64,000 bases of DNA from assembly GCF_016592435.1 (NCBI RefSeq), contig NZ_AP014545.1:2860693-2924692 (forward strand), read 5' to 3'. The notes below the pieces were generated by a model, which was not told the origin of the DNA, ran no database searches, and saw nothing but the letters and a program-made list of their open reading frames with translations. A program made the translations under genes and the position numbers. Source of the stretch: Amphritea japonica ATCC BAA-1530 (GTDB taxonomy: Bacteria; Pseudomonadota; Gammaproteobacteria; Pseudomonadales; Balneatricaceae). Position 1 is the stretch's first letter. Each line of letters begins with the position of its first letter. Positions 36,918-40,570 of the stretch are shown in pieces.

Positions 36918-37961
36918 TTAACTGCCTTTTTTACGTTTCCTTGATTCATTTTGTACCGACCTGTAAAAACGACCCAGCGCCCGGTCTTTTTCCCGTTTCT
37001 CTGCGAGACTGGCACTATTGTGGGCCTGCTCACGCATCAATTTAAGGTAATTCGACAATCGACGCTGATCAATCTGAGACGCTTTAAGTGCACTCTGCAC
37101 AGCGCAACCGGGCTCCGAATTATGCTGACAGTCGCTGTAACGGCACTGTTCAATCAAGGCACTAATATCGGCAAATGCCTCTTCCAGGCCTGCTTCACAA
37201 TCGGTCAGCTGTAACTCACGCATACCCGGAGTATCAAGCAACACACCTCCACCAGGCATCAGATGCAATGTGCGGGAAGTGGTTGTATGACGTCCTTTGT
37301 CATCTGCACTGCGAGCTGCGGCGGTTTGCTGGGTCGACTCCCCCAGTAAAGCATTCACTAATGTAGACTTACCCACACCAGATGAACCTAATACCGCAAC
37401 ACTATTACCCGAGCGACACCAGGGAAGTAAAACCTTTGCGCTACTGACATCAAGCCCATTAACCACTTCAACCATCAGTAATGGATCAAGGGCCTGTACC
37501 TGCTGCAAATAACTGCCCGGATCATCACAGAGATCAGGCTTGGTTAAAACCACCACCGCATCTGCGCCCGCTTCTTTAATCAGCGCAAGATAACGTTCAA
37601 TGCGATTAAGGGAAAAATCCTGATTCAGTGAAGTGGTAATAAAGACAGTATCGATATTACTGGCAATTAGTTGCTCGGATACTTTACTGCCCGAAGCCTT
37701 ACGCGAGAAGCGAGACAGACGTTCCAGCAGACGATAAAACGTTCCGTCCTCATGCAAAAGGACCCAGTCCCCCACCGTTAGAGCAGGTATTTTGGACGTA
37801 TGAGGCAAGCGCCGCTGACCTTGCTCGCTATACAGCTCGAGATGTGAGCGATGCTGCGCGATAACTCGGGCAGGCAGGTATTGAGTACATTCTTCTAATG
37901 AGAGTTGTTGCTGAAAAAAAGGTGACCACCCCAGTTGGGACAGTGAATAAATTGTAGTCAT
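36918..37961 (-). CDS. rsgA: ribosome small-subunit-dependent GTPase RsgA (RsgA2-type)
   Basis: 347 aa. RsgA proteins help late 30S assembly, acting as GTPases on the subunit. An OB fold (about 30-100) precedes a circularly permuted GTPase: G4 LTKPD (about 138), then G1 GSSGVGKSTLVN (about 192), then G3 LLDTPGMREL. The C-terminal zinc site is CRYSDCQHNSEPGC. The N-terminus (LGWSPFFQQQLSLEE) resembles the second RsgA of vibrios. RBS AGGGG lies five bases before ATG 37961, right after a hairpin; regulation appears to involve the leader described next. Confidence 0.92.
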   Translation of the reverse strand: MTTIYSLSQLGWSPFFQQQLSLEECTQYLPARVIAQHRSHLELYSEQGQRRLPHTSKIPALTVGDWVLLHEDGTFYRLLERLSRFSRKASGSKVSEQLIASNIDTVFITTSLNQDFSLNRIERYLALIKEAGADAVVVLTKPDLCDDPGSYLQQVQALDPLLMVEVVNGLDVSSAKVLLPWCRSGNSVAVLGSSGVGKSTLVNALLGESTQQTAAARSADDKGRHTTTSRTLHLMPGGGVLLDTPGMRELQLTDCEAGLEEAFADISALIEQCRYSDCQHNSEPGCAVQSALKASQIDQRRLSNYLKLMREQAHNSASLAEKREKDRALGRFYRSVQNESRKRKKGS

Positions 37962-38063
37962 AGAAACCCCTGACGCTTACATAAGTAGCGTCCGATAAAT
38001 AATCATCGGGGGCTAAATTGCCCCGGTTTATAAACCGGGCAGAGAAATCAGGTTATACGGATT
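37962..38063 (-). promoter_or_regulatory. attenuator-like structured leader of rsgA
   Basis: Read on the minus strand after the leader ORF. Element 1 CCGGGCAG (38072-38079, inside the ORF) can pair with element 2 CTGCCCGG (38035-38042). Element 2 can instead pair with element 3 in the palindrome CCCGGTTTATAAACCGGG (38022-38039). Element 3 can pair with element 4 GCCCC (38009-38013) across AATTTA. Element 4 is also complementary to the GTPase SD AGGGG (37967-37971). A last stem GACGC/GCGTC (37972-37992) abuts that SD. Confidence 0.6.
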
Positions 38064-38099
38064 TCAGCGGACTGCCCGGAAGGTTTTAACTACAATCAT
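38064..38099 (-). CDS. leader peptide MIVVKTFRAVR
   Basis: Eleven codons and TGA. A very strong Shine-Dalgarno GGAGGG (38105-38110) lies five bases before the ATG, far better than chance for so short a frame. The ORF encodes pairing element 1 of the leader in codons 7-10. Its position 103 nt before the rsgA start and behind a consensus-like promoter marks it as a translated regulatory leader, not a functional protein (inference). Confidence 0.6.
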   Translation of the reverse strand: MIVVKTFRAVR

Positions 38100-38138
38100 C
38101 TTTACCCTCCAGTGTTAAATAAGTCATTTACGCAATTA

Positions 38139-38166
38139 AATCTATCAGAAGCCATTCGCTTGTCAA
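38139..38166 (-). promoter_or_regulatory. sigma-70 promoter of the rsgA leader
   Basis: Minus strand: perfect -35 TTGACA (38161-38166), 16-bp spacer, -10 TAGATT (38139-38144). The transcript would start near 38131 and carry a leader of about 170 nt before rsgA. Confidence 0.6.
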
Positions 38167-38233: not shown

Positions 38234-39607
38234 TCAGGCCTCGTGTTTTAAGACAGAGCCTAAAATTCTATTGAGATCTCGAAGTGAGTTACAGGCTTCA
38301 ACATGGGAACAATAGGGGGCGTACTTACGCATAATAGAGTCGCCACTGTCCCAGCTAACCGGTACTTCCGGGTTGAGCCAAAGCACTCGCTGACTACGGC
38401 GATAGATCTCTTCCCATAGCGCTATATTGCCATCTTCATTATTATTGCGGGCATCACCCAGCATAATAACGGTGGTACGGTTATCGATATCTGCAAGGGC
38501 CATCGTCTCAAAATCACTCAGCGCTCTGCCATAGTTGGTCGGTTTACTCCCCCAGGTATGCAGGACTTCAGCCAACCCTTGCTCCATATCCTTCTCTTCA
38601 AACAACTTCGTTACTTCAGCCATATTAGATGAAAAGACGAACGATCGAACATTCGGCAGAACGTCTTGCAGCGAGTATAAGAACAGCAGAAGAAACCTCG
38701 CCACCTTACTCACTGAGCCGCTGACGTCGCAGAGCACCATCACCTTAGGACGCTCAATCCGGGTTGATTTCCACTTAGTATGAAAGAGAAAACCATCATA
38801 TGCGGCATTAGCTGTGATGGTACGTCTGACATCCAGCAAGCCACGCTTAGTAATACGTCGTCTGCGACTGTGCATACTGGCTAATCTTTTCGCCGCTTTG
38901 CGGACCAGTTCACCCATCAGCTTGTAATTACGCTGATCAATGCTGGTCAGGCTGATTTTTTGTAGATTACCTTCGCGTCGCTTATTTGGTTCATTTTGAT
39001 TCAACGCCAGAAATTGCTGTTCGAGGTAATCACGAACTTGCTGCTGCAATCTGGCTCGACGCTGCTGTAGCAGTGAGAGTATCGCACTGCTTTCCTCACG
39101 TTCAGCCAGTGCGGCCAGTTCCTGCTGCAACTCACCATCACCTAACGCCTGCATAACCCGATAACTCACCATAGGTACCTGAGTCATAAAGGTTACTTCC
39201 TGAGCACCAGAGGCGCCTGCTGCACTGGCTATCATTACCTGCATTCCAGCCATATCGCCGCTGATCAACTGCTGCGCCAGGGGTGACTCAAGACTGTTAA
39301 TAGCGTCCGGCAGTGGCTCTGACAGTGGCGCGGCCATCGTTTGACCAGTATCCTCAGACGTTGCTGAATTATCCGTACTGAACTGGTTATGACTGTTGAA
39401 GTACTGATCAAAAATCTGATCAAAAATCAGTCGATGCTCCAGGCATTTAGACAACGTCATCCCCAGAGACTGTTTCAGCAGAGGCGCATTATCAATACCA
39501 ACTAACTGTGCTGCTCTTAAGCCGTCGAGGGTTTCTGCCGAAGAAATTGGCAAACCGGCTTGTCGCAGTGCGTGGATAAAATCGCCTAATACTTTTTGCA
39601 TGATCAA
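38234..39607 (-). CDS. VWA domain-containing CoxE-like protein
   Basis: 457 aa. The C-terminal half is a von Willebrand factor A domain (about 285-450) with the MIDAS motif DVSGS in VMVLCDVSGSVSKV and VIMLGDARNNN. The N-terminal half is Gln/Leu-rich helical. CoxE-type proteins work with MoxR AAA+ ATPases as metal-insertion or maturation chaperones; the moxR gene lies 18 bp upstream. No client enzyme is nearby. A decayed copy of its 3' end lies at 34113-34207. Confidence 0.87.
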   Translation of the reverse strand: MIMQKVLGDFIHALRQAGLPISSAETLDGLRAAQLVGIDNAPLLKQSLGMTLSKCLEHRLIFDQIFDQYFNSHNQFSTDNSATSEDTGQTMAAPLSEPLPDAINSLESPLAQQLISGDMAGMQVMIASAAGASGAQEVTFMTQVPMVSYRVMQALGDGELQQELAALAEREESSAILSLLQQRRARLQQQVRDYLEQQFLALNQNEPNKRREGNLQKISLTSIDQRNYKLMGELVRKAAKRLASMHSRRRRITKRGLLDVRRTITANAAYDGFLFHTKWKSTRIERPKVMVLCDVSGSVSKVARFLLLFLYSLQDVLPNVRSFVFSSNMAEVTKLFEEKDMEQGLAEVLHTWGSKPTNYGRALSDFETMALADIDNRTTVIMLGDARNNNEDGNIALWEEIYRRSQRVLWLNPEVPVSWDSGDSIMRKYAPYCSHVEACNSLRDLNRILGSVLKHEA

Positions 39608-39625
39608 TGTCGACCGGCAGGTCGA

Positions 39626-40570
39626 TCAGCTTCCCTTTGTCGCGACTTTAAGAAGATTATGAATCTCGGGTTCTACCGCTTCGATGTCATCCTGAAACTT
39701 TAATAACAGATTCAGTGTCGTTTTTACCCACTCATGGTCAAGATTATCGACATTGAGCAATAACAGCGCCCGGGCCCAGTCGATAGTTTCGCTAACCGCG
39801 GGGACTTTTTTCAAAGACATATCCCGAAGCTCGCTGATAAATTCAACCAACTGATGCTTAAGCTTGTCATTCAGTTCGGGGACCTGAGCGGTAATAATCT
39901 TCTGCTCTATCGCCTTCGATGGAAAAGGAATATAGAGATGCAGGCAGCGTCGCTTCAATGCATCACTAAGCTCACGGGTATTATTACTGGTTAAAAGCAC
40001 CAACGGCTTAGACTTCGCTTTGACCGTGCCCAGTTCCGGAATAGAAATTTGATAATCGGATAGCAGCTCCAGCAGAAACGCCTCAAATTCCTGATCTGCT
40101 TTATCAATTTCATCGATCAGAAGAACGGCACCATCCTCCGTCCGTAATGCTTCCAGTAGCGGGCGTGGCTCAAGGAATTCATCTGAATAAAAGATATCGC
40201 CAAACTGATGTAAACGGGAAACTGATTCATCCAGCCCTTTAGCACCCCGCATCACATCACCCAGCTGATCTTTCAATAACTGGGTATAGAGCAACTGCTT
40301 GCCGTACTTCCATTCATATAGCGCCTTGGCTTCATCCAACCCTTCATAACACTGCATGCGAATCAAAGGAGCCGACAGCAGATCAGAGGTTTTCTTCGCC
40401 AACTCGGTTTTACCCACACCCGGAGGGCCTTCGACTAAGATTGGTTTCTGCAGGTGGCACGCCAGATACACCGAGGTGGCGATAGCATCGCTACAAATAT
40501 AGCCCAGGGCTTCAAACTGCTGTTTGATGGTATCGGGGGAATTGATTTTGTCCTGATTTCGAATAATCAC
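39626..40570 (-). CDS. MoxR-family AAA+ ATPase
   Basis: 314 aa. Walker A VEGPPGVGKTELAKK (about 42-56), Walker B VLLIDEIDKADQEFEAF, sensor-like LLTSNNTRELSDALKRRC. MoxR ATPases remodel client enzymes together with VWA partners, here the next gene. The two-gene operon is divergent from the rhlE-like helicase. Confidence 0.92.
   Translation of the reverse strand: MIIRNQDKINSPDTIKQQFEALGYICSDAIATSVYLACHLQKPILVEGPPGVGKTELAKKTSDLLSAPLIRMQCYEGLDEAKALYEWKYGKQLLYTQLLKDQLGDVMRGAKGLDESVSRLHQFGDIFYSDEFLEPRPLLEALRTEDGAVLLIDEIDKADQEFEAFLLELLSDYQISIPELGTVKAKSKPLVLLTSNNTRELSDALKRRCLHLYIPFPSKAIEQKIITAQVPELNDKLKHQLVEFISELRDMSLKKVPAVSETIDWARALLLLNVDNLDHEWVKTTLNLLLKFQDDIEAVEPEIHNLLKVATKGS

Follow-up and report, generated by a model that had tools for sequence, protein, structure and literature searches.

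Among the described systems most similar to the locus reported here is hflXr of Listeria monocytogenes with its leader rli80 (Duval et al. 2018, PMC6310831). There, too, a duplicated ribosome-associated GTPase is preceded by a short leader ORF and mutually exclusive folds, a separate housekeeping copy stays uninduced, and expression tracks ribosome stalling; both induction and resistance have been demonstrated experimentally. Unlike our locus, hflXr belongs to the HflX family, is controlled by transcription termination instead of masking of the Shine-Dalgarno (SD) sequence, and has a 14-amino-acid leader with an RLR motif. In Escherichia coli, the toiL upstream ORF of topAI-yjhQ gates the SD of the next gene, and its inducing stalls include those at or near the start codon (Baniulyte and Wade 2025, PMC12121999). 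However, toiL is a simple ORF:SD hairpin that responds to stalls along the whole ORF and precedes an unrelated gene, whereas in the leader described below five or six segments act as a relay, and the predicted ON zone is limited to codons 1–3. The erm, vga(A), vmlR and cplR attenuators also use a drug-stalled leader ribosome that shifts exclusive stems, exposing an SD or antiterminating (PMC9226507, PMC10201436, PMC12121999), and stalls at the start codon are the presumed signal for vmlR, vga(A) and cplR (PMC9226507, PMC10201436; discussed in PMC12121999). These attenuators control methyltransferases or ABC-F proteins in Gram-positive bacteria, whereas our leader has a conserved M-I-V opening, precedes an RsgA paralog and is found chiefly in marine Gram-negatives.

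For RsgA itself, the Streptomyces coelicolor RsgA/EngC pair SCO6149/SCO5211 is listed among paralog pairs whose WblC-activated member differs in transcription from its paralog under tetracycline (PMC7157823). This control is exerted by a transcription factor, and membership of the induced copy in the RsgA2 clade defined below is unassigned. Leader control of RsgA or its paralogs was not found in the open literature searched (subscription literature lay outside the search), in agreement with the first-pass annotation of this DNA, which knew of no such case.

The window, the whole stretch of 64,000 nucleotides analyzed here, carries the following features, listed in the direction of transcription with their supporting evidence in brackets:

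38139..38166, minus strand: σ70-type promoter TTGACA-16-TAGATT with TGN ahead of the –10 region (extended –10) (sequence)
38105..38110, minus strand: leader SD GGAGGG (invariant in 20 leaders)
38064..38099, minus strand: leader ORF MIVVKTFRAVR, 11 codons plus stop (sequence and conservation)
38076..38112, minus strand: helix P0, CUGGAGGGU (38112-38104) paired with ACCUUCCGG (38084-38076) (leader fold and covariation)
38072..38079, minus strand: element 1, CCGGGCAG, within the leader ORF (sequence and covariation)
38035..38042, minus strand: element 2, CTGCCCGG, partner of element 1 or element 3 (folds and covariation tests)
38020..38026, minus strand: element 3, CCGGGGC, partner of element 2 or element 4 (folds and covariation tests)
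38009..38013, minus strand: element 4, GCCCC, partner of element 3 or the rsgA2 SD (state-specific window folds)
37972..37992, minus strand: hairpin GACGC...GCGTC immediately 5′ of the rsgA2 SD (covaries)
37967..37971, minus strand: rsgA2 SD AGGGG (sequence and window folds)
36918..37961, minus strand: rsgA2, encoding an RsgA-type circularly permuted GTPase of 347 amino acids, paralog of canonical RsgA (profile scores, tree and motifs)

The promoter, both SD sequences, the leader ORF and elements 1–4 had all been named in the first-pass annotation and are present, on the minus strand. Helix P0, which includes the leader SD and shares nucleotides with element 1, had escaped it. The arrangement is genuine and far from chance: the leader fold has a z-score of –5.1 against dinucleotide shuffles, with none of 200 folding equally well, and the pattern GGAGG-N4-9-ATGATTGTN occurs only once in the entire 3.83-Mb genome. 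Conservation in relatives, described below, settles that it is real. Close relatives carry a matching promoter ∼67 nt 5′ of the leader ATG, as revealed by comparison of upstream regions. No Rfam family scored above its gathering threshold for the leader in the window and 20 related loci; the only Rfam matches were to a tRNA, within the window, and to an SRP RNA, at related loci. As a separate observation, the 5′ neighbors on the same strand (38234-40570) encode a VWA (CoxE/MadC-like) protein and a MadB-like AAA ATPase, which score under the curated Mad cut-offs and have no evident link to rsgA2.

The downstream gene had been described as an RsgA-type GTPase. This holds at the level of the superfamily, but the protein is a paralog and not canonical RsgA, which is encoded at another site in the same genome. 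It passes the RsgA superfamily model TIGR00157 (144.7 bits, cut-off 100) and PF03193 (150.3, cut-off 30) and misses the canonical RsgA equivalog NCBIfam NF008931 (159.1 bits, cut-off 360). In a tree of 50 proteins, the sequences that we term RsgA2 form one clade and the canonical sequences the other, with 100% support. The phosphate-binding loop reads GQSGVGKSS in canonical RsgA and almost always GSSGVGKST in RsgA2. Because G1, the switch histidine (GRHTTT), DTPG and the Cys-rich zinc-binding motif align with solved RsgA structures, RsgA2 is likely to be an active 30S-binding GTPase, with both activity and binding inferred from these motifs. Ten of 14 genomes checked via named loci contain two RsgA-family genes; a single one was seen in two alphaproteobacteria, one actinobacterium and one chloroflexote. 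Among named relatives, an Amphritea is nearest (95% protein identity). Two rsgA2 copies with equal match scores occur in one relative (G571:C2:139955-140986 and G571:C2:982413-983444), and in Pontibacterium (L024 and L065) the rsgA2 match lies in two frames near a short tandem repeat, such that the gene may be broken; the leader is intact there.

Conservation of the ORF and of stem complementarity in relatives had been set beforehand as the test that could refute the attenuator. Short leader ORFs precede the RsgA2 orthologs of Amphritea, Aliamphritea, Marinobacterium, Neptuniibacter, Neptunomonas, Pontibacterium, Thiodiazotropha and Thiohalocapsa, and also those of Agarivorans, Vibrio, Gilvimarinus, Alteromonas, Marinobacter, Microbulbifer and Photobacterium; two alphaproteobacteria likewise have one. 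These ORFs usually open with M-I-V. Among 58 unique leader ORFs, codon 2 is ATT in 42 and Val3 is present in 54, encoded by GTA, GTT, GTC or GTG in 38, 11, 3 and 2 cases, respectively. Since Val3 is kept through all four synonymous codons, this pattern of codon usage indicates that the peptide, and not the RNA alone, is under selection. The leader SD, start, stop, length and residues 1–3 are all conserved with synonymous codon change, from which translation itself is inferred.

A covariance model of the leader yielded six hits in 369 gammaproteobacterial genomes: its own locus, four strong hits and one weak 26-nt match. Each of the four strong hits lies 5′ of RsgA2, and the possibility that the leader also serves other genes was dropped on this basis. 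None of 20 upstream regions of canonical rsgA contains a leader ORF of this kind. The leader is widespread but not universal, because by our own tally about 27 of 72 RsgA2-bearing genomes from an order-wide draw show a recognizable ORF. At two loci (L126 and L127), rsgA2 lies in an operon directly 3′ of another gene and has no leader ORF.

The stems are conserved by compensatory change. In an alignment of 26 leaders, helices 1:2 and 3:4 and the last hairpin together contain 17 double-changed cells compared with 3.8 ± 1.5 in shuffled alignments (0/500), and this signal collapses when the helices are slid. Examples are CCGGGCAG/CUGCCCGG, CCGGGUUA/UAACCCGG, CCGAGCA/UGCUCGG and UUCAGGCAG/CUGCCUGAA for 1:2, and GACGC/GCGUC, GACGU/ACGUC and GGCGC/GCGCC for the last hairpin. 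P0 also covaries (6 double-changed cells, 1.2 in shuffles, 0/500), for example GUUAGG/CCUAAC and CGGAGGGC/GCCCUUCG. Helix 2:3 is nearly invariant and covaries only weakly. For the pairing of element 4 with the rsgA2 SD, no covariation was found; its bases are nearly invariant, and it is therefore neither supported nor refuted by this analysis. The shuffle counts are not corrected for relatedness and are therefore supporting evidence, not proof. With both ORF and stems conserved and the stems covarying, the refutation by non-conservation fails. The elements, their conservation and covariation and the M-I-V identity of the peptide are established at the level of sequence comparison.

We then asked how the rsgA2 SD behaves as a ribosome moves along the leader. 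Its opening energy was computed with a ribosome at each leader codon for 38 non-redundant leaders of <75% identity; these folding energies leave out co-transcriptional kinetics. The SD opens most easily with the P site at codons 1–3, and the energy required climbs at codon 4. Opening costs on average 2.21 kcal/mol more at the stop codon than at codon 3, with a positive difference in 35 of the 38 lineages (absent in L054, L141 and L145); eight shuffled sets of the same leaders give means of –0.50 to 0.11 kcal/mol and 14 to 24 positive leaders. The step from codon 3 to codon 4 alone amounts to 1.36, versus at most 0.10 in shuffles. In a nucleotide-by-nucleotide scan, the SD is open for a first free base at nt 16–23 of the ORF and shut at 24–26. 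Given the usual ribosome edge, this modeled open band corresponds to codons 1–3 and coincides with the conserved M-I-V.

The window was also folded in separate ribosome states (first free nucleotide ∼20, 23, 26 and 47). With a late ribosome, 2:3 forms and the rsgA2 SD is bound by element 4, which reproduces the OFF state proposed in the first-pass annotation. For the early ribosome, 1:2 and 3:4 form as had been proposed, but the SD is only partly freed. The complementarity of element 4 to the SD is thus realized as a pairing in the late-state fold and still lacks covariation support. Overall, the proposed chain of mutually exclusive stems matches the window folds state by state and extends to 35 of the 38 lineages but not to shuffles. 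Besides the conserved short ORF, two further criteria for a leader-peptide attenuator are fulfilled: there are mutually exclusive stems, one of which uses ORF sequence (1:2 versus 2:3, 3:4 versus 4:SD), and SD access changes with ribosome position. The latter, like the ON/OFF energetics as a whole, is demonstrated by computation only.

In the absence of a ribosome, leader codons 2–8 pair with the rsgA2 SD and start in the minimum-energy fold of the window. This fold allows an alternative explanation, namely a two-state switch as in toiL/topAI of E. coli (PMC12121999), in which the leader ORF masks the rsgA2 SD and start, any stall within the ORF opens them, and the 1:2:3:4 chain is secondary. 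We consider such a switch unlikely: the start-region part of the pairing is lost in divergent leaders, 1:2 covaries, and opening depends on where the ribosome stalls, being shut from codon 4 in 35 of 38 lineages. The ribosome-free state is clearly closed in 23 of the 38 lineages.

Since nearly all leaders open with Ile and Val codons, they could also be read as amino-acid-starvation attenuators in the style of the ilv operon, sensing Ile/Val (or Arg) codons. This appears even less plausible to us, as Ile codons occur just once and Val codons once or twice, without any run, codon 4 is variable (Val, Ala, Ile, Leu, Phe, Met, Thr or Ser), and rsgA2 is not a biosynthetic gene.

Several other candidates were discarded. 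Intrinsic termination was dropped for the window leader, in which a check for intrinsic terminators found no U-tailed hairpin ahead of rsgA2. The idea that the leader start and the rsgA2 start codon form a conserved duplex, as they do in the ribosome-free fold, was abandoned because divergent leaders do not keep it. Coupling by termination and reinitiation is considered unlikely, as the leader stop and the rsgA2 start lie 102 nt apart in the window; in most relatives the gap is 76–150 nt.

The RsgA2 clade also contains other leader architectures. At four loci (L063, L082, L149 and L178), element 2 pairs straight with the rsgA2 SD. Of 14 Bacillaceae RsgA2 loci examined, 12 show a transcription-attenuator version in which a leader ORF is combined with a U-tailed terminator; the 5′ arm of this terminator contains GGGCUGUG, the complement of the ORF-internal CACAGCCC; at one locus (L117) this pair is altered and complementarity is kept. 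The Bacilli thus retain the leader ORF without the gammaproteobacterial fold, and element 1 lies inside the leader ORF in every architecture. That the same logic recurs with unrelated sequences strongly suggests that this regulation is important to the RsgA2 clade.

Ribosomal proteins and assembly factors frequently regulate their own synthesis through RNA mimicry, and the leader is highly structured, but binding of RsgA2 or another factor to an RNA with a merely incidental short ORF remains the least credible explanation, given that the ORF retains its start, SD, length and first residues through synonymous change, that element 1 is ORF-internal in every architecture, and that Bacilli keep the ORF and not the fold.

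Further RsgA2 loci were noted in passing. In a chromosome-like Listeria monocytogenes sequence (L211:2160-2500), the RsgA2 gene adjoins pnp and has a short leader ORF, MAIVKMENLIINTGVFYL; a downstream GCTCC could pair with the rsgA2 SD GGAGC, making this a possible attenuator of the direct type. On a Lysinibacillus plasmid (L213:2492-5978), the neighborhood of RsgA2 is resistance-like, with a predicted fosfomycin-resistance gene and a metG carried on the plasmid beside it. Plasmids of Vibrio (L208:5143-8593) and Shewanella (L209:5143-8029) share a GNAT–HTH–rsgA2 cluster without an M-I-V leader. A conjugative Streptomyces plasmid (L212:2300-4869) carries, behind a Tn3 transposase, rsgA2 with a candidate leader ORF 5′ of it, followed by a fused methyltransferase/acetyltransferase gene.

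We propose, with good but not full confidence and without expression, toeprint or ribosome-profiling data, that the leader is a ribosome-position-controlled translational attenuator that turns RsgA2 on when ribosomes stall at the leader start. A ribosome reaching the stop of the 11-codon ORF would cover element 1, so that 2:3 pairs and element 4 occupies the rsgA2 SD (OFF). Without a ribosome, P0 would hold element 1, or the leader ORF would pair with the rsgA2 SD, and the window is predicted to be OFF as well. A ribosome stalled with its P site on codons 1–3 (M-I-V) would melt P0 and leave element 1 free to form 1:2, then 3:4, and the rsgA2 SD would be released (ON). RsgA2 is thus probably made only upon stalling on the first three leader codons. 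The cue is inferred to be a translation stress under which ribosomes halt at initiation or shortly thereafter. Ribosome-targeting antibiotics, the best-known cause of such arrest, are a likely example by analogy to HflXr and toiL; alternatives could be slow initiation, cold or assembly defects. The role of RsgA2 is equally inferred, in that it may act on 30S subunits during such stress, and the feedback on ribosome biogenesis put forward in the first-pass annotation is an inference as well.

Taken together, the mechanism suggested in the first-pass annotation is well supported by comparative and computational evidence, while experimental proof is absent. It is refined here by the paralog clade, helix P0, the ON zone of codons 1–3 and several independent architectures. 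Conservation of the arrangement across many bacteria suggests an undescribed response to ribosome stress. In a broader reading, for which we see the case as evenly balanced, RsgA2 would be a widespread, unrecognized class of ribosome-stress or antibiotic-response GTPases, the 30S counterpart of HflXr, repeatedly recruited under differing leader-peptide attenuators (SD relay, direct SD masking or terminator), with the M-I-V leader sensing arrest in the first three codons.

If the proposed attenuator is confirmed, a clade annotated everywhere as plain ribosome-assembly GTPases would represent a regulated response to stalled ribosomes. The conserved M-I-V leader would then offer a means of studying arrest within the first codons, with the directly testable prediction that the switch is ON solely for stalls at codons 1–3. 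Maturation of the 30S subunit would be tied to drug or translation stress, just as HflXr ties ribosome splitting to it.
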